Source: a virus
Virus record (IMG/VR): IMGVR_UViG_3300033388_001284
Span: 1-51,635 of that record
Strand: one strand, 5' to 3'
Length of the DNA stretch: 51,635 nucleotides
Each line of letters opens with the position of its first letter. Within the stretch, counting starts at the first letter, position 1. A program made the translations under genes and the position numbers. Under the pieces are notes generated by a model. It did no database searches, was not told where the DNA came from, and worked only from the letters and a program-made list of their open reading frames with translations. This document shows positions 3,036-39,268 of the stretch, in pieces.

Positions 3036-3247
3036 TAGTTACACTCCCTTAAATGTTTTCTTAGGTCTAGGTCTAGTAGTAATCTGCTATAATCCCTCTC
3101 CGATTGGTTGATCAGGTCGTTATTGTATTTATGTATAATACTTATTCTCTCCAGTTCAAGAACTGTAATATACTTACCATCAAAGTTGTACCCTTCCAGT
3201 TGCTGTCGAATGGGCAGTGCCAGTGTGTCATAGTTGATGTTTAGCAC
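3035..3247 (-). CDS. Small protein, unknown
   Basis: 70 aa, predicted mostly helical, with charged C-terminus (RLLLDLDLRKHLRECN). Overlaps the upstream gene by 7 bases and the downstream membrane peptide by one base. Not recognised. Confidence 0.7.
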   Translation of the reverse strand: MLNINYDTLALPIRQQLEGYNFDGKYITVLELERISIIHKYNNDLINQSERDYSRLLLDLDLRKHLRECN

Positions 3248-3438
3248 AATTTACCATCCTTAATGTATTCCAGCAAAGATAAATCCTTTAAAGCGTCAAT
3301 TTTTAGGTCTCTAAGGCCCGTTACTACGTTGTTACTTGTCGCTGTTTTTAGATCTTTTTCTAGCCCCTTTAAAAACTTCTTTGTATTTTTTATTTTGTCA
3401 ATTAACCTTTGTTCTTGTGGTGTTCTTGGTATTTTCAT
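3241..3438 (-). CDS. Small helical protein, unknown
   Basis: 65 aa, basic N-terminus and long amphipathic helices (LIDKIKNTKKFLKGLEKDLK), ending in DGKLC. Could be a coiled-coil or DNA-associated microprotein; no family match recognised. Tightly packed in the leftward early operon. Confidence 0.7.
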   Translation of the reverse strand: MKIPRTPQEQRLIDKIKNTKKFLKGLEKDLKTATSNNVVTGLRDLKIDALKDLSLLEYIKDGKLC

Positions 3439-3439
3439 G

Positions 3440-3823
3440 TTATTTATCCCCCTCTAATGAAGTTATTATAAAATTTATATCTTCTTCATCATGGCTACAC
3501 TGTATAAGAGTTATTCCCCACTCACCATTTATTGGGTAGTACCCCTCAATATCTTTAATGGTGCGTTTTACTATTATTATATGCCAGTATCTACTTACTG
3601 GCTTAACCTCTGATGCCATATATTCCAAATATGTTTTAACATAATCACCGTCATTTATTTCTATATCTCTAGCACCATTAGGCCAGAATAGAACCTGTTC
3701 TTTTAATATAGATTCCATATTTTGACCTTCTCTAGTAAAACCAAAGTCGATTTCTATCTTCATGTTAAAAGTCTGATCTTCGTCCTCTATTTTAAATAGT
3801 TGTTTACCTATGTATTGCTTCAT
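3440..3823 (-). CDS. Hypothetical early protein
   Basis: 127 aa, mixed beta and alpha, aromatic-rich centre (PVSRYWHIIIVKRT, EGYYPINGEWG). One base separates it from the next gene. Its leader GGGGATAAAT ATG is nearly the same as that before 3241-3438 (GGGGGATAAATAACATG), part of a repeated leader style here. Function unknown. Confidence 0.7.
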   Translation of the reverse strand: MKQYIGKQLFKIEDEDQTFNMKIEIDFGFTREGQNMESILKEQVLFWPNGARDIEINDGDYVKTYLEYMASEVKPVSRYWHIIIVKRTIKDIEGYYPINGEWGITLIQCSHDEEDINFIITSLEGDK

Positions 3824-4106: not shown

Positions 4107-4354
4107 TATTTAGCCTCTGCTCTTGGTAAATTATAATATATATCTCGCAGCTTCTCTAATTCTTCTTCTTCCAAGTTCAGCAATTCTATATTTTCATCTA
4201 TGACTTCACACTCCCCATTCCATAAAGCAGGACAACCGGAGTCACATCCACTAACTATCCCATATGTATGGCAATCCCCGTGGTTATGGCAATCACCGGA
4301 TAAATATTGTATTGTTCTTGAAAAGTCCATTTTCTCGTGATTTATTTTTCTCAT
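4106..4354 (-). CDS. Cys/His-cluster protein, unknown
   Basis: 82 aa from ATG 4354 (GAGGGGG 8 bases upstream, just after the upstream stop); an ATG at 4372 is the weaker alternative. Residues 20-50 hold CHNHGDCHTYGIVSGCDSGC, then a further Cys, a dense potential zinc site. The C-terminus is an acidic helix with LNLEEEELEKL. Unknown function. Confidence 0.65.
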   Translation of the reverse strand: MRKINHEKMDFSRTIQYLSGDCHNHGDCHTYGIVSGCDSGCPALWNGECEVIDENIELLNLEEEELEKLRDIYYNLPRAEAK

Positions 4355-5395: not shown

Positions 5396-5683
5396 TTAAA
5401 TATAATAGGTCTCCATTTGGTTTAGGTACTCTAACAGGCTTACCACCATGTTTTTTATTGCTTCGGTAACTTTTACTTTCATACTATACAAAAGTAATGA
5501 TATATCGTTCTTAATGGTGTTTAGAGTTGAAGCCCTTGACACTTGCCGACCGTCAATTTCTAGTGTATACCTGACAATTGTCTTTGTGTTCATTCGTGAA
5601 ACTATATCGTTTAATTGAAAGTTTACCTCTTTTTCTCTTAACTGTTTGTCCTGTCGTTCTTTACGTCTGATTGTTCTTTTCAT
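5396..5683 (-). CDS. Small basic protein, unknown
   Basis: 95 aa from ATG 5683, which overlaps the upstream stop as ATGA with GGAG six bases before; ATG 5695 is an in-frame alternative without a good site. Very basic N-terminus (MKRTIRRKERQDKQLREK) suggests nucleic-acid contact; helical C-terminus. Confidence 0.65.
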   Translation of the reverse strand: MKRTIRRKERQDKQLREKEVNFQLNDIVSRMNTKTIVRYTLEIDGRQVSRASTLNTIKNDISLLLYSMKVKVTEAIKNMVVSLLEYLNQMETYYI

Positions 5684-7050: not shown

Positions 7051-8067
7051 ATTATTATCCTTTTCATCATCCATCACCACTGAAATGTAATCAATATTAT
7101 CATGATTTATAAAAACCATACCATTTAACTTATATACTGTTATATCCTGTTTATTTATATTTATATAATTTAACAGGTTTTTATAATTACACCTCGCCGG
7201 AGTCAATAAAGATCCTGTTTTTATTGCCTCCGATTCAATAATATTATGAACTAATTTATTATTATATAATGTAATACAATAATCTTCCTTAGATAATTTA
7301 TCAATAATGTTCAAAGTCTCTGATAGATTACTATAATCCAATTTAATATAATCCTCTGGTAAATCATCCGGCATTATTTTTGATATATCAGGAAAATTAA
7401 TACTTAGAGTTTTACAATGAATTACTAAATCACCTGTTTTAATCATTGCTTGTAAATTACTAATTTTTACTTGGCAATTGCCAAGGGGGTAAAATATAAA
7501 TGTGGGTAAATTTACTTGTAATTCGTCAATATCGCTGTTATAAGCCTGTTTTATAACTCTTGTTAATTGCCTGCCATCAGTTGATGCAATATCAAGATTA
7601 TTAGCTTTATTAAAGTTTAATACTTTTTCAAATCTAGAACCTTTATTTGTGCATACCGTAGAAAGTAGGTTTTTTACTTCCAACTCTTTTAAATCTACTG
7701 TATAATCAAATTTATCCAACATCTGGAGATCAAAAGTATCGTAAAATTTTGACGGTTTAATATTAGTACTCAATTTTATAATTTTAGACCCTGTTATAAT
7801 ACTATTATCCGTTAATTCAATAGTATCTGTTTTAATTACTGATAATGCTTTACTCACGAAGTCAATACTATAAAGATTTTTTCCAAGAGCCGCTTGGTGT
7901 ATATCCTTAGTAATATATTTTACATTACCAAGATATCCATTTTCTTTATCTATTATTACAGTGCTAATATTACCAACACTATTGACCCAAAAATATCTCT
8001 CTTTATCAGTATTATACTTTTTTAACATAGTTAACGCTTTTTTAAATTCTCTAGTTTTTATTATCAT
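7048..8067 (-). CDS. DnaN-like DNA polymerase sliding clamp
   Basis: 339 aa, close to the 366 of bacterial beta clamps. Signs of the family: the domain-2 strand pair NNLDIASTDGRQLTRVIKQ (compare ATDgHRLa), NFPDISKIMPDDLPEDYIKL (compare RFPdy..viP), and a C-terminal DYISVVMDD that aligns with the YVVMPMRL end of DnaN. It would ring the DNA and hold the phage family A polymerase (42287-44086). Start chosen at ATG 8067, 5 bases after AAGGTGG; an in-frame GTG lies at 8076. Similarity is remote and rests on pattern only. Confidence 0.6.
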   Translation of the reverse strand: MIIKTREFKKALTMLKKYNTDKERYFWVNSVGNISTVIIDKENGYLGNVKYITKDIHQAALGKNLYSIDFVSKALSVIKTDTIELTDNSIITGSKIIKLSTNIKPSKFYDTFDLQMLDKFDYTVDLKELEVKNLLSTVCTNKGSRFEKVLNFNKANNLDIASTDGRQLTRVIKQAYNSDIDELQVNLPTFIFYPLGNCQVKISNLQAMIKTGDLVIHCKTLSINFPDISKIMPDDLPEDYIKLDYSNLSETLNIIDKLSKEDYCITLYNNKLVHNIIESEAIKTGSLLTPARCNYKNLLNYININKQDITVYKLNGMVFINHDNIDYISVVMDDEKDNN

Positions 8068-8353: not shown

Positions 8354-8403
8354 TCCACCTTATTAGTTAATCTTTATTTAGTCGGTATCATATACCGCTT
8401 GTT
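8354..8403. repeat. 50-bp leader repeat, copy 1
   Basis: Identical to 8717-8766. On the minus strand it is the untranslated leader of the next gene: box ACAAGCGGTA, the inverted repeat CGGTAT-CAT-ATACCG, an A-rich stretch, then the ribosome site AAGGTGGA. The duplicate leader suggests shared control of the two genes. Confidence 0.9.
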
Positions 8404-8716: not shown

Positions 8717-8766
8717 TCCACCTTATTAGTTAATCTTTATTTAGTCGGTATCATATACCGCTTGTT
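8717..8766. repeat. 50-bp leader repeat, copy 2
   Basis: Exact second copy, directly downstream of the 8777-8805 promoter and upstream of gene 8407-8712. Holds the same ACAAGCGGTA box and CGGTAT/ATACCG inverted repeat. Confidence 0.9.
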
Positions 8767-9111: not shown

Positions 9112-9245
9112 TATATACCTCTCTTATATTCAATGATTGTTTTTACTATCGCTAGTACAATTAGTAAGCCGAAGGCCGTTGTCATAATTGTTAAGGATAG
9201 TTTAGCGCCTTGCGTTAGGTCTGTTAGTAGTCTTAGTTGTTCCAT
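9111..9245 (-). CDS. 44-residue membrane peptide, first gene of the leftward operon
   Basis: MEQLRLLTDLTQGAKLSLTI then a hydrophobic segment (TTAFGLLIVLAIVKTII) and EYKRGI. AAAGGAAC precedes ATG 9245, and the stop overlaps the next ATG. About 30 bases after the expected start site of the 9279-9307 promoter. Confidence 0.6.
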   Translation of the reverse strand: MEQLRLLTDLTQGAKLSLTIMTTAFGLLIVLAIVKTIIEYKRGI

Positions 9246-9278
9246 GTTTAGTTCCTTTGTTGTTAATAAGATATACTA

Positions 9279-9307
9279 GTTATACATTACCGCTTGTCTA
9301 TTGTCAA
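9279..9307 (-). promoter_or_regulatory. Main leftward early promoter
   Basis: Read leftward: TTGACA (9302-9307), 17 bases, TATAAC (9279-9284). The ACAAGCGGTA box (9288-9297) sits exactly inside the spacer, so a protein bound there would block or re-shape the promoter. First in line for the whole left arm. Confidence 0.75.
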
Positions 9308-9929
9308 GAGTTTTTATTGGTATTATTCGGATATGTTAGGTGTTTTACTTATTCTTTACATTTGGAGGGTATTTGTTTGTTATGTGCTATTTATGGTTTA
9401 GTTGTAGTATTTGTGTATATTGTATGGGAAAAGGATACAAAAGTAGTCTACAACGTATCTGCACGCTATAGAGTGCGGTTATGTGTACAATACTTGTATA
9501 CTACGCTTTATAAGTGTTGTATGTTAATTGACACTTATTTGATGTTTACTTGTAAGTTGTGTATAGGGCATGAGTTAGAGGATAATTGATAATTGTTACT
9601 TGTTATTTGTCGTGTGCTATTTGTTGTTTGCCCAGTGCTTTTGTAGTTAGTGTATGTTTTGACCAATGCAGCTAAAAACATTTAATAGTTGTATAAACTA
9701 TAAATATAATGCCCTTTTAGAGGTAGTACAGGAAACACTCTACAGTGTCTGCGCTGTCTGCAGGTGTTTTGAGACAAAAAAGGGGTCGGTCGATTTGGTG
9801 AAATAGCTTTTTGTTATGCAGTCCCTAGCAGAGTTTCTAAGTGTCGTTATCTGTATTGTAAATAAAAAGACAATAGAAAAATGAAATAGTGTTAAAACGG
9901 CAATAAGCAATAATTATTGGGTCTGCGTT

Positions 9930-9973
9930 CGACTCTACAAATACAAAAATTGCTGTAGTCCTTTGTAGAGTCG
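9930..9973. repeat. Perfect 12-bp inverted repeat
   Basis: CGACTCTACAAA (9930-9941) and TTTGTAGAGTCG (9962-9973) flank 20 bases. It is not followed by a T-run on either strand, so it is not a typical terminator. Candidate site for an origin-binding or regulatory protein, or for cruciform formation. Confidence 0.8.
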
Positions 9974-10038
9974 CAACAACCATCAATTGTCACCCACCAT
10001 CACAAGGATAATACAATATAAGTATGTGTAATACATCT

Positions 10039-10070
10039 ATTACTTGGCAATTGTCAAGGTGACAAGTAAT
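10039..10070. promoter_or_regulatory. Operator-like nested inverted repeat upstream of the rightward promoter
   Basis: ATTACTTG (10039-10046) and CAAGTAAT (10063-10070) are perfect arms; between them is TTGGCAATTGTCAA, itself nearly palindromic around CAATTG. It ends about 30 bases before the -35 at 10102, where an activator or repressor could act. Confidence 0.6.
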
Positions 10071-10101
10071 AAAATAAATATTATTATCTCACAAATAACA
10101 C

Positions 10102-10130
10102 TTGACATGGTGTCACTATAATGCTATAAC
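10102..10130 (+). promoter_or_regulatory. Rightward sigma70 promoter
   Basis: TTGACA (10102-10107), 17-base spacer, TATAAC (10125-10130); expected start about 10137. The spacer also contains TATAAT at 10118-10123, 10 bases from the -35 and so probably not the -10. No coding gene begins within 300 bases except a doubtful 28-codon frame. Confidence 0.75.
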
Positions 10131-10183
10131 TATGACAGAGAGTTAATGAAGTTGGTGCGACGTTTACTATCTAATGCCAATGG

Positions 10184-10212
10184 TCAACCGCTACCTGATA
10201 ACGGGCGGTTGA
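10184..10212 (+). other. RNA hairpin in the candidate untranslated RNA
   Basis: TCAACCGC (10184-10191) pairs perfectly with GCGGTTGA (10205-10212) around a 13-base loop. GC-rich against its AT-rich surroundings. Confidence 0.7.
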
Positions 10213-10378
10213 TACTGAGGTTAGTTCTTTAACATCACGTAGCAATGCGCAAGCAGGGCAAGTAACAATTATTACATGACAATGGTCAACTGTCCAGTGA
10301 CGGTGCACTATGGATGCCTGACAGGGTGTCACATGCCAATGGCTATATGAGATATGCTAATCGCCGATTGTCAAGGGC

Positions 10379-10414
10379 CGGGGGGGTCTTTTATTTTCAC
10401 CCCCACCGATTTTT
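10379..10414 (+). terminator. Intrinsic terminator before the right early arm
   Basis: CGGGGGGGT (10379-10387) pairs with ACCCCCACCG (10399-10408), one bulged A, 11-base loop, followed by ATTTTTA. The strong stem and U-run fit rho-independent stop. It lies between the 10102 promoter and the first right-arm gene. Confidence 0.65.
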
Positions 10415-10436
10415 AGTAAACCACTTATAAATAAAC

Positions 10437-10446
10437 ACAAGCGGTA
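10437..10446 (+). promoter_or_regulatory. ACAAGCGGTA box before the right arm
   Basis: Exact copy, on the plus strand, of the ten-base box found on the minus strand at 8393-8402, 8756-8765 and 9288-9297. Lies 18 bases before the start codon at 10465, next to a TATAAA at 10426-10431. Suggests one regulator for both arms. Confidence 0.55.
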
Positions 10447-10464
10447 AGTAACAAAGGAGACTAG

Positions 10465-10680
10465 ATGAAAGTAGAGAAAGAGTTAACAGCTTATTCATTA
10501 GGAATGAGAACGTATATAGGGGTGAAGGTAATAAACGCTTATCCTCTCAAAGAGAATGGCAAAGAAGGGTATTGTGTGCATTATCCTGATGGATACATAA
10601 GCTGGTCACCAAAAAAGATCTTCGAAGAGGCTTATCGTGAAGTGTCTTATAGTGAAAAAAAGTTAGTAGACCACCAGTAG
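10465..10680 (+). CDS. Conserved small phage protein (SWSPK..FEEAYR type)
   Basis: 71 aa. Middle TYIGVKVINAYPLKENGKEG, then YCVHYPDGYISWSPKKIFEE and AYRE. I recall this GY.sWSPk.vFE.AYR end in small phage early proteins of unknown function. AAAGGAG precedes the ATG by 6 bases. First gene of the rightward early arm. Confidence 0.75.
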   Translation: MKVEKELTAYSLGMRTYIGVKVINAYPLKENGKEGYCVHYPDGYISWSPKKIFEEAYREVSYSEKKLVDHQ

Positions 10681-11308: not shown

Positions 11309-11376
11309 CGGGCAATCGTCTAATGGTAGGACATAGAGGTCACAACTCTAAACGGCGTTCGATTCGCCTTGCCCGG
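11309..11376 (+). tRNA. Shortened tRNA-like gene, anticodon position CAC (Val-type)
   Basis: Acceptor arms CGGGCAA (11309-11315) and TTGCCCG (11369-11375) pair 7 of 7. D arm GTCT/GGAC with loop AATGGTA; anticodon arm TAGAG/CTCTA around GTCACAA; T arm GGCG/CGCC around TTCGATT; then G and CA. The T stem has only 4 pairs and the variable region only 3 bases, so it is about 4-5 bases short of a normal tRNA. Base 32 is G rather than a pyrimidine. It may be a functional odd tRNA, a decayed one, or a tRNA mimic. Confidence 0.5.
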
Positions 11377-11405
11377 CAGTAGTATTAAAATAATAATTTT
11401 CATTT

Positions 11406-11487
11406 CAGGCACGTAACAATTGACAGCAACTTAATCGTAAAGTCATTGAGGCTAAATACCTCTTGTCAATTGCCATGCCTGTTTTTA
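11406..11487 (+). terminator. Long stem-loop ending in a U-run
   Basis: CAGGCA (11406-11411) and CAATTGACA (11417-11425) pair with TGTCAATTG (11464-11472) and TGCCTG (11476-11481); TTTTTA follows. The 38-base loop contains short internal complementarity. Could stop transcription behind the tRNA-like gene, or form a structured leader for 11504-11605. Confidence 0.55.
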
Positions 11488-11503
11488 TTAAAGGAGAACA
11501 ACA

Positions 11504-12517: not shown

Positions 12518-12684
12518 TGGAATACCAGAACAAAACACAATTGACACGTCTCAAGGAACAATTGTCACTTGTCTGTCAGGAATATATGAATAAACAAACA
12601 CACAGCATTAAAGATATCAAAGTTACTTTCACCACAGAGGGTATTGTAGGTGGAGTAGAAGTTAACATAAGGGAGCATAAGTAA
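12517..12684 (+). CDS. Small protein, unknown
   Basis: 55 aa, MEYQNKTQLTRLKEQLSLVC, then a beta hairpin (KVTFTTEGIVGGVEVNI) and REHK. AGGTGG is the ribosome site; its final AAG GGAG-like bases serve the next gene (TAATG overlap). Contains CAATTGTC at 12559. Confidence 0.6.
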   Translation: MEYQNKTQLTRLKEQLSLVCQEYMNKQTHSIKDIKVTFTTEGIVGGVEVNIREHK

Positions 12685-12953
12685 TGGGAATAGGCGAAGC
12701 AGTAGAGGCAATGGAAAATGGGCAGAAGGTTAGAAGAGCAGGATGGAATGGTAAAGGGATGTGGTTGTGCTTAATGCCTTCATTATTCCTACCTAAAGAA
12801 AGCGTTAACGTAAGAACTAAAAGTCATATAGGTGAAGCAGACCTTGATTGTCAACCTTATATTGTTATGTGGACTGCACAAGGAAAGTGGCAACCGGGAT
12901 GGTTAGCATCACAACCAGACTTACTGGCTAAAGATTGGGAGGTAGTAAAATGA
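12684..12953 (+). CDS. Tad2-like anti-Thoeris protein (DUF2829)
   Basis: 89 aa, full length for the family. MGIGEAVEAMENGQKVRRAG, then WNGKGMWLCLMP, PYIVMWTAQGKW and WLASQPDLLAKDWEVV: the G.A...l..GkkV.R.gWNGKGM ... Pyi.m.ta.g....W..sq.DlLa.DWe.v signature. Known members (Tad2) form tetramers that bind and hide gcADPR signals made by the Thoeris defence system, in the cytoplasm. The phage copy sits in the early arm, where anti-defence genes are expected. Binding specificity is not known from the sequence. Confidence 0.8.
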   Translation: MGIGEAVEAMENGQKVRRAGWNGKGMWLCLMPSLFLPKESVNVRTKSHIGEADLDCQPYIVMWTAQGKWQPGWLASQPDLLAKDWEVVK

Positions 12954-13663: not shown

Positions 13664-13918
13664 ACAAAATAAAACACGTTTTTATTTGTACTTATATTAG
13701 CTTTTAAATTAGTAATCCCTATGTCGTTGACTAGGGGTTGCGCAGTTGGTAAGTAACAGTGGTTAAATCAGGCGTTGCCTGTTAACATATAGCGAATTAA
13801 AACAAACAAATTAAAGAATATAAAGCTTTAATAGATAAGTAAAAAAACAAATTGATAAAAACCGAGGTAGGGGTATGGTGTCACCTGCTCTTACCGATTC
13901 GCTTATTCGGAGATATAT
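13664..13918. other. Intergenic region before the late arm
   Basis: 255 bases without a gene. Hairpins CCCTA-tgtcgttgac-TAGGG (near 13718) and CAGGC-gtt-GCCTG (near 13772) are visible, and TTGACT with a poor TAAGTA -10. It could hold a promoter or processing site for gene 13919-14389. Confidence 0.5.
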
Positions 13919-14389
13919 ATGAATAAATATAAACTTCCTTCATATGAAGGATTAGATAAAAAGTCGAACATGTACAGAGAAGTCGTCTCTTTACGTGGAA
14001 AAGTTAGACGAGACGCAATTGTAGCTGTCACAGACATAATATTGAATAATAAAGACATGTATGAGCAAGATATTATAGATGCAGCAGAGTGTTTGTTACC
14101 TCAAAATAAGAAAGCAGAAGGTAAACTACCTCCTAAAGTTCAAGAGATCTATGACCTATTTGAAGATGTCAGAACCCATGTTTCAGAAGAGAATATCTTT
14201 GCAAAATACAGATATGGTAGACGTGAAATGAAGGACTTCATCAAAGTGATGATAAAGAAACCAGATCCAGCGGATCGCAAATGGGTTAATTTTGTTGAAG
14301 ACCTAGGTACATATGTTTTAATGAAGATAGGCGGCGATCCCCCTAAAGACTGGTCAGGCTATCTTCCTCCCTATAATCCACTTATTTAG
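13919..14389 (+). CDS. Hypothetical protein between early and late genes
   Basis: 156 aa, mostly helical: REVVSLRGKVRRDAIVAVTD, CLLPQNKKAEGKLPPKVQEI, REMKDFIKVMIKKPDPADRK, and a GDPPKDWSGYLPPYNPL end. GGAG six bases before ATG. It is isolated between a 255-base leader and an intrinsic terminator, so it is its own transcription unit; such a place suits a regulator of late genes, but no DNA-binding motif is certain. Confidence 0.75.
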   Translation: MNKYKLPSYEGLDKKSNMYREVVSLRGKVRRDAIVAVTDIILNNKDMYEQDIIDAAECLLPQNKKAEGKLPPKVQEIYDLFEDVRTHVSEENIFAKYRYGRREMKDFIKVMIKKPDPADRKWVNFVEDLGTYVLMKIGGDPPKDWSGYLPPYNPLI

Positions 14390-14413: not shown

Positions 14414-14450
14414 AAAACCGCAGGTTACTCACCTTTCCTGCGGTTTTTTT
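14414..14450 (+). terminator. Intrinsic terminator before terS
   Basis: ACCGCAGG (14417-14424) pairs with CCTGCGGT (14437-14444), flanked by AAA and a run of seven T. Textbook rho-independent terminator closing gene 13919-14389. Confidence 0.9.
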
Positions 14451-34606: not shown

Positions 34607-35794
34607 ATGCCAGATATTTTAGATGCTGATGGTCTACAGATAAAGTCATTAACAGAGGTACGAGACGAACTGGAAACAGATCTTCAGAATATCTTTGGTT
34701 CTGACATAAATACTGACCAAAATAGTCCAGATGGACAACAGATAAATATCTATGCACAAGGTGGTATAGATTTAAGAGAAGTAGTACAAAAAGTATACAA
34801 TGGGTTTAACCCTAATCTTGCTGAAGGTAAAGTACTAGACCAGCGAGTAGCAATTAACGATATACAGAGGAACCTGGGTACCTACTCCACAACACCTGTC
34901 ACTTTGACATATGACAAGGTGGCAGCTTTGATTGGTCTAGACGCAGAGTCATCCACTCTTATTCCTGATATTGAGGGCTTGTTTACTGTTAAGGATGATG
35001 AAGGAACTTTGTTCTATCTAATAACAAGTGTGACAACTGCCGGAGCAGGAAGCAGTGTACATGAGTTTAGAGCAGCGGAATTAGGTCAAGTTGAAATATT
35101 ACCTAACACAATAACAACACAGCAAGTGATTGTATCGGGGATAACCGCTGTTAACAATCCTTCGCAGCCAACGACAATAGGTATTGATGAAGAGACAGAC
35201 ATAGCATTGAAAGTTCGTAATGTTAAGGCTGCAGCTCTGAGATCCTATGGGTACCTAGATAGTATTATCGCAGGACTTAACAATATTACAGGAGTGGTAA
35301 ATGCCTATTGTTATGAGAACGTTTACTCATCTACAGATGCTGACGGGATACCAAGTCATAGCATTTGGGCAATTGTCGAGGGTGGAGCGGATGCTGATAT
35401 TGGAGAAGTATTATACAAAAAGAGAGGTGGAGGCTGTGGTATGAAAGGTGCGGTAGAAGTAGTTGTACCAAGAAACACAGATCCAGCGTCAAATGCCAGT
35501 ATGTTCTTCGATAGAGTTGTACTTGATGACCTCTATATAAAAATGACTATAACTGGTTTCTACAATGACACTACTGTTAAAGACGGTATCGTAGCTGATA
35601 TTATATGGGATGTTGGACAACCAGCAACCAGCGATGTTATATCCTGTTATGTTAAAGGGCTATATCCGGATGCTATAATAACAGAAGTTAGAGTAAGTAC
35701 TGACGGTGTCGTTTGGGCAGAGATAGTTGCTGCACCAGACAAGAAAACAAGATACAATAATGATGCGCCTAATATTTCGATAAACGGAGTGTGA
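34607..35794 (+). CDS. Baseplate wedge protein J-like (gp47/gp6 type)
   Basis: 395 aa. LTEVRDELETDLQNIFGSDI, NSPDGQQINIYAQGGIDLRE, AATNPSQPTTIGIDEETD-like region, ALKVRNVKAAALRSYGYLDS and a C-terminal DIIWDVGQPATSDVISCYVK fit the baseplate J family. Forms wedge dimers with the next gene's product. Confidence 0.85.
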   Translation: MPDILDADGLQIKSLTEVRDELETDLQNIFGSDINTDQNSPDGQQINIYAQGGIDLREVVQKVYNGFNPNLAEGKVLDQRVAINDIQRNLGTYSTTPVTLTYDKVAALIGLDAESSTLIPDIEGLFTVKDDEGTLFYLITSVTTAGAGSSVHEFRAAELGQVEILPNTITTQQVIVSGITAVNNPSQPTTIGIDEETDIALKVRNVKAAALRSYGYLDSIIAGLNNITGVVNAYCYENVYSSTDADGIPSHSIWAIVEGGADADIGEVLYKKRGGGCGMKGAVEVVVPRNTDPASNASMFFDRVVLDDLYIKMTITGFYNDTTVKDGIVADIIWDVGQPATSDVISCYVKGLYPDAIITEVRVSTDGVVWAEIVAAPDKKTRYNNDAPNISINGV

Positions 35795-38955: not shown

Positions 38956-39268
38956 TGATGATCCGGACATCATAGAAGTAAAAATGGATAGACTAACCTA
39001 CTTTCTTGTTACTCCGTTCTTTATGAACGAGGTTGAGATTGTAGATAGTGAACATGAAATAGATAAGAAGATAATTAGATACTATAAAGATAAAGAAGTG
39101 CTATTTGACAAGGTGGTCAAGTTCGCTAACCAGAAGGATATTATGATAAAGGCTTTAGTGATAAGTACGTCGGTAGGTTTTGTGATATCTATAGGACTGA
39201 TAACAGGTGTAATAGTCTACGCTTTGTTACACTATTACACCAATAACAGGATTACTTCTTTCTCTTAA
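38849..39268 (+). CDS. Putative second spanin / exported membrane protein, GTG start
   Basis: 139 aa. GTG 38849 lies 7 bases after AAAGGAG, inside the Rz-like gene. Signal peptide (MLTRILLVITFLLANVSLSA), periplasmic domain with EVKMDRLTYFLVTPFFMNEV and C-terminal membrane helix (ALVISTSVGFVISIGLITGV). A true Rz1 or u-spanin would have a lipobox Cys; none is present. So the topology is N-out, C-anchored, not the standard. It overlaps the convergent gene by 17 bases. Confidence 0.5.
   Translation: MKDRTSVEMLTRILLVITFLLANVSLSAKEISITNDDDPDIIEVKMDRLTYFLVTPFFMNEVEIVDSEHEIDKKIIRYYKDKEVLFDKVVKFANQKDIMIKALVISTSVGFVISIGLITGVIVYALLHYYTNNRITSFS

Follow-up and report, generated by a model that had tools for sequence, protein, structure and literature searches.

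At the head of the rightward genes of this virus we found a strong promoter, a leader of non-coding character, an intrinsic terminator and, within the leader, an exact match to the boxA consensus. The interpretation that we favor, tentatively, is that this leader, which heads the rightward operon, is terminator-gated and that the block is lifted by boxA-dependent processive antitermination. The leader is probably the on-switch for the right-arm genes. The initial annotation had suggested that the right arm is read only when termination is overcome, or else that a free regulatory RNA is made; the former fits the anatomy and is strengthened by the boxA, which had been overlooked, and the free RNA is still a possible product.

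The window (the whole stretch of DNA analysed) is an IMG/VR virus record of 51,635 bases from an uncultured tailed bacterial virus. Leftward genes run from 9245 to 508 and from 51556 to 39252, the latter block encoding DNA polymerase A, helicases and an AEP-type primase. Rightward genes begin at 10465 with a series of small genes, followed by the large terminase (14821) and then by the sheath and other structural genes, ending at 39268. The proteins scanned included no recognised integrase. For the replication, sheath and conserved genes, most of the best matches are to proteobacterial phages; those of the terminase are in Synechococcus phages. The features on which the argument turns are the following.

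5396–5683, minus strand: candidate arginine-rich protein of 95 aa in the left operon, with the N-terminal stretch MKRTIRRKERQDKQLREK, proposed by motif only
9279–9307, minus strand: left early promoter, TTGACA-17-TATAAC, overlapping a one-mismatch palindrome (9293–9308); its first gene starts at 9245
10043–10058, no strand: 16-bp palindrome CTTGGCAATTGTCAAG, upstream of the right promoter
10102–10130, plus strand: right promoter, −35 TTGACA (10102–10107), 17-bp spacer, TGC (10122–10124), −10 TATAAC (10125–10130)
10104–10116, no strand: palindrome TGACATGGTGTCA, overlapping the −35 and the spacer, candidate operator or loading site
10137–10420, plus strand: untranslated leader RNA, 284 bases, 46% GC, not coding-like, ending at the intrinsic terminator
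10174–10183, no strand: segment 1, ATGCCAATGG(TCAAC), imperfect copy of a TGNCA-type motif
10184–10212, plus strand: hairpin 1, perfect 8-bp stem UCAACCGC/GCGGUUGA, arms 10184–10191 and 10205–10212, pair probability 0.97–1.0
10224–10234, plus strand: boxA GTTCTTTAACA, predicted NusB/S10 site, exact match to GYTCTTTAANA
10242–10259, plus strand: boxB-like hairpin GC-AA-UGC-GCAA-GCA-GG-GC with a GNRA (GCAA) loop, starting 7 nt after boxA
10276–10285, no strand: segment 2, ATGACAATGG(TCAAC), imperfect motif copy with three mismatches to CTTGNCAATTGNCAAG
10319–10342, no strand: TGACA-ggg-TGTCA-ca-TGCCA, three phased TGNCA units that include segment 3
10379–10416, plus strand: intrinsic terminator, GC-rich, stem-loop 10379–10408 (CGGGGGGG..CCCCCACCG), tail ATTTTTAG
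10465–10680, plus strand: first gene of the right arm, encoding 71 aa, with a strong ribosome site (AAAGGAG), matching phrog_9467/phrog_872, of unknown function
11406–11490, plus strand: second right-arm terminator-like hairpin, after tRNA-Val, with the tail TGTTTTTATT
14414–14447, plus strand: third terminator of the right arm; its stem is perfect, and the presumed small-terminase gene (14487) follows directly

The near-consensus promoter and the GC-rich intrinsic terminator that had been described right before the right arm are both borne out. The promoter, in which the TGC before TATAAC forms an extended −10, ranks first among the 863 promoter-like sites in the window by a simple additive score; a standard promoter scanner demands a final T in the −10 and therefore missed it. 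We infer that transcription starts at about 10137, from which the promoter should yield an untranslated RNA of 270–280 bases that stops before the long gene block. The terminator (−14.1 kcal/mol, fourth in a mechanical ranking of both strands) lies 49 bases upstream of the first right-arm gene. It is moderate by textbook standards, having an 11-nt loop, one bulge and a U-run of five, and, considered by itself, it folds with an energy that is ordinary for a sequence of its composition. Because no promoter scoring at least 10 of 12 was found on the plus strand between 10130 and 12115, the first right-arm genes are expected to depend on read-through. Furthermore, the right arm carries strong terminator-like hairpins on its sense strand (10379, ~11480 and 14414), and such hairpins are almost missing from the sense strand of the left operon. 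The right-arm terminators and this asymmetry fit a rightward transcript that needs termination resistance.

Bacteria and lambda-type phages use boxA as a docking site through which RNA polymerase is enabled to read beyond terminators. The sequence GYTCTTTAANA is the boxA consensus for binding of NusB/NusE (S10), derived for gamma-proteobacteria (PMC5725501), and it may not be that of the present host; the replication and sheath genes are similar to their counterparts in phages of proteobacteria, the group in which the consensus applies. It matches twice in the whole window against 0.76 expected, one match being that in the leader on the transcribed strand. The stricter form GYTCTTTAACA occurs once in the leader. 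When the leader was shuffled 20,000 times with dinucleotides preserved, this form arose with a frequency of 5e-5 and a one-mismatch version in 0.4% of shuffles, although both frequencies are optimistic because the boxA was first noticed by eye. Several observations count against the boxA reading. The boxA is predicted to be half-paired, in a weak hairpin at 10220–10233, and the GNRA hairpin downstream is weak evidence, being expected by chance in 8.5% of shuffles and overlapping an alternative GCAA hairpin at 10238–10249. The moderate strength of the terminator and the failure to find a leader homologue weigh on the same side.

If antitermination does occur, it is most likely nut-like. The leader shares with the lambda N/nut system (and with mEp021 Gp17/nut) an early promoter, a boxA in the 5′ leader and an intrinsic terminator before the genes. 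Candidate counterparts of two further features are the hairpin with a GNRA-type loop just downstream of boxA and the small arginine-rich protein encoded in the left operon. The leader differs in that no N homologue was found here, the boxB-like stem is short and compatible with chance, and the boxA is of the rRNA type, GTTCTTTAACA. Moreover, lambda has nut sites on both early transcripts, whereas here the site is on the right one only: at the left promoter a ribosome site and gene follow within ~30 bases, leaving no untranslated leader and no boxA. The rRNA leader and suhB boxA elements likewise share the exact consensus, and a hairpin here lies on the upstream side, where rRNA leaders have their boxB; the present element differs from them in heading a phage operon, in having an intrinsic terminator close downstream and in showing no recognised boxC. 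We do not assign the leader to the nut, put or Q families, since no nut or put element was found on the left transcript and no Q homologue among the proteins scanned.

Complexes formed on rRNA-type boxA oppose mainly Rho rather than intrinsic terminators, and a phage factor must therefore be assumed. The earlier statement that no N- or Q-like gene was recognised holds by homology: no N-type protein was found, and scans of early, right-arm and replication proteins detected no Q homologue (PF03589, PF06530, PF06323). The one motif candidate is the arginine-rich 95-aa protein, which has no family or PDB match.

One could envision the following sequence of events. The strong host-type promoter would fire early, and most polymerases would make some 270–280 untranslated bases and stop at 10408–10416. 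The nascent RNA would present boxA, probably together with the neighboring hairpin or hairpins, to host NusB-S10; NusA/NusG and probably a phage factor, for which the arginine-rich protein is a candidate by its motif, would join to give a termination-resistant polymerase. Such a polymerase would pass the leader terminator and then those at ~11480 and 14447, so that formation of the complex would turn on the right arm, which includes a Tad2-like anti-defence gene, a tRNA and perhaps also the genes for head and tail. Were this so, terminator gating that depends on Nus factors would also operate in a lineage of contractile-tailed, apparently virulent phages with no recognisable N or Q gene, and a promoter, boxA and terminator before an anti-defence arm would constitute a compact sequence test for antitermination in unannotated phages.

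Alternatively, the product might be a stand-alone terminated small RNA, either a stable species of 270–280 nt acting in trans or the by-product of a fixed terminator that lowers right-arm expression and is never overcome. We regard this as possible, though not probable. Strictly, only the promoter, the lack of a gene and the terminator are established, and the leader has an elevated GC content (46%, compared with 28–39% in the other stretches measured). Folding of 10137–10420, which the initial annotation had put forward as a check, gave some excess over shuffles, but a modest one (z −1.9/−2.0), and without the terminator the fold was ordinary (z −1.0), which speaks against this explanation. 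The 8-bp hairpin described earlier is present, and no classical attenuator, in which an antiterminator pairs with a terminator arm, was seen by eye. The small-RNA explanation also leaves the boxA unaccounted for and the first right-arm genes lacking a good promoter of their own.

A plain terminated RNA is nevertheless a serious rival because no leader homologue was detectable for comparative work. The leader DNA had no real match among phages and plasmids, and Rfam covariance models gave no match at the gathering threshold and none of relevance at E up to 5. The hairpin-plus-boxA pattern gave no hit in the viral-contig search; a pattern CAATGGTCAAC..TTCTTTAAC matched seven times there, but all seven proved on reading to be protein-coding sequence and were rejected. 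The relatives found by terminase and sheath (L007–L011) have only packaging and structural genes in common with this phage and carry no homologous leader; in L007–L009 the terminase/structural block, at 26–67% amino-acid identity, is all that is shared. Scans with other proteins and two genome-contig scans yielded no relative. The phage, plasmid and viral-contig searches thus gave neither conservation nor covariation in support of the leader.

Another hypothesis, which we consider unlikely, is that a phage protein binds the promoter DNA at TGACATGGTGTCA, joins the polymerase there and enables it to read through the leader terminator, in the manner of lambda Q at pR′-tR′ and Pseudomonas AlpA (PA0807). 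In these systems, as here, a strong promoter is followed by a gene-free leader of ~200–280 nt and a terminator before a long operon, and the palindrome here lies between the −35 and −10 in the way that QBE or ABE does. The geometry agrees with both; in PA0807 the terminators lie 26 and 247 bp after the start, and here the terminator begins at ~243. The motif family to which the palindrome belongs is enriched genome-wide. The same motif, however, also lies over the left promoter and in many genes, as would be more typical of a repressor or architectural protein, the leader contains a boxA, and no Q/AlpA homologue turned up when early and replication proteins were scanned.

It is rather unlikely that the leader is a decayed gene (a frame from 10146 through two TAA codons), encodes a leader peptide (10146–10232) or arose by chance, with a coincidental boxA. 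The raised GC content and the location of all three CAATGG segments in one frame are in keeping with former or present coding. On the other hand, the codon scores of the three forward frames of 10146–10430 (−0.10, −0.10 and −0.08) are at the level of shuffles (mean −0.13, sd 0.06), compared with +0.15 to +0.32 for reference genes of this phage, and the read-through product has no protein match above chance in PHROGs or in tblastn against phage records. We therefore rejected the coding and decayed-gene readings, and the original statement that no convincing gene lies between promoter and terminator stands.

The three ATG(C/A)CAATGG segments reported in the leader (10174, 10276 and 10333) are where they had been placed, and two of 300 leader shuffles did as well. 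They look like imperfect copies of a palindromic DNA motif that is scattered over the window. The three leader repeats, ATGCCAATGGTCAAC, ATGACAATGGTCAAC and ATGCCAATGGCTATA, are similar to CTTGNCAATTGNCAAG, a palindrome that with up to three mismatches has 33 matches in the whole window against 2.7 expected. Segment 1 has four mismatches to it, only segment 2 falls within three, and segment 3 is reached via the TGNCA units. The basic unit, TGNCA, repeats at 7 or 8 bp, with 16 pairs at 7 bp compared with 0.5 expected. Perfect or near-perfect sites lie at 7470–7485, 9293–9308 (over the left promoter), 10043–10058, 11462–11477 and 34897–34924, and the motif overlaps both early promoters and occurs inside structural genes. 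Because it is self-reverse-complementary and found in genes of both orientations, a DNA-binding site is more likely than an RNA motif. One could imagine, although we think it quite unlikely, that the TGNCA(N2/3)TGNCA palindromes are bound by a single phage regulator, which would govern the two early promoters and have further sites of action in the leader (10174, 10276 and 10319–10342). This would be a combined operator/antitermination switch, linking control by a DNA-bound protein to a terminator-gated RNA with a boxA, in a phage lineage that lacks N, Q and any recognised repressor. No ribbon-helix-helix regulator for the motif was found by Pfam in 46 proteins.

The RNA-only mechanism of HK022 put, which had been offered as one known model and is a weak option among antitermination types, is very improbable. 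It would have two adjacent stem-loops bind the beta-prime zinc-binding domain of polymerase directly and suppress termination without the help of a phage protein, in line with the lack of a recognised N or Q gene, and the leader near its early promoter does contain two adjacent predicted hairpins (10182–10241, ~60 nt; z ~−2 to −2.5 for 10176/10178–10262/10270), much as the put element comprises about 70 nt and two adjacent stem-loops. Put, however, requires a specific sequence and a minor-groove triplex that contacts the zinc domain (PMC9378689). HK022 carries put on both the pL and pR transcripts, whereas here there is a leader on one side only and the left operon starts with a gene; the put family was not among the Rfam matches to the leader; and boxA, which is no part of put, points instead to Nus factors.

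Several further observations concern the right arm. A Tad2-like domain (Thoeris anti-defence, PF11195, E 1e-24) is encoded at 12684–12953; this gene and 10465–10680 both match phrog_872, in different parts. The stretch 11309–11490 holds tRNA-Val (CAC) and, after it, a long hairpin with a T-run; this hairpin, formed by CAATTGACA/TGTCAATTG, is probably the terminator of the tRNA. A second right-arm stretch without a listed gene, 13664–13918 (255 bases), folds with z −2.7 against shuffles and contains a lambda-boxA-like GCTCTTAC at 13887, just before gene 13919. In the relative L008, a promoter and an untranslated RNA of ~200 nt (3225–3460) precede a weak counterpart gene of 13919–14389; this RNA is strongly folded (z −3.4), with a long closing stem around a multi-branch core, and has no Rfam match. 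L008 also has a very strong terminator (4130–4178, −34.7 kcal/mol) right before its terminase genes.

The control region between the divergent operons (9245–10100, ~0.85 kb) is AT-rich and without convincing genes. It contains a perfect 12-bp inverted repeat, CGACTCTACAAA/TTTGTAGAGTCG, at 9930–9973 (z −5.6 as RNA, no T-run after it) and further hairpins at 9447–9538. An identical 15-bp near-palindrome, CGGTATCATATACCG, is present at 8383–8397 and 8746–8760, before two left-operon genes.
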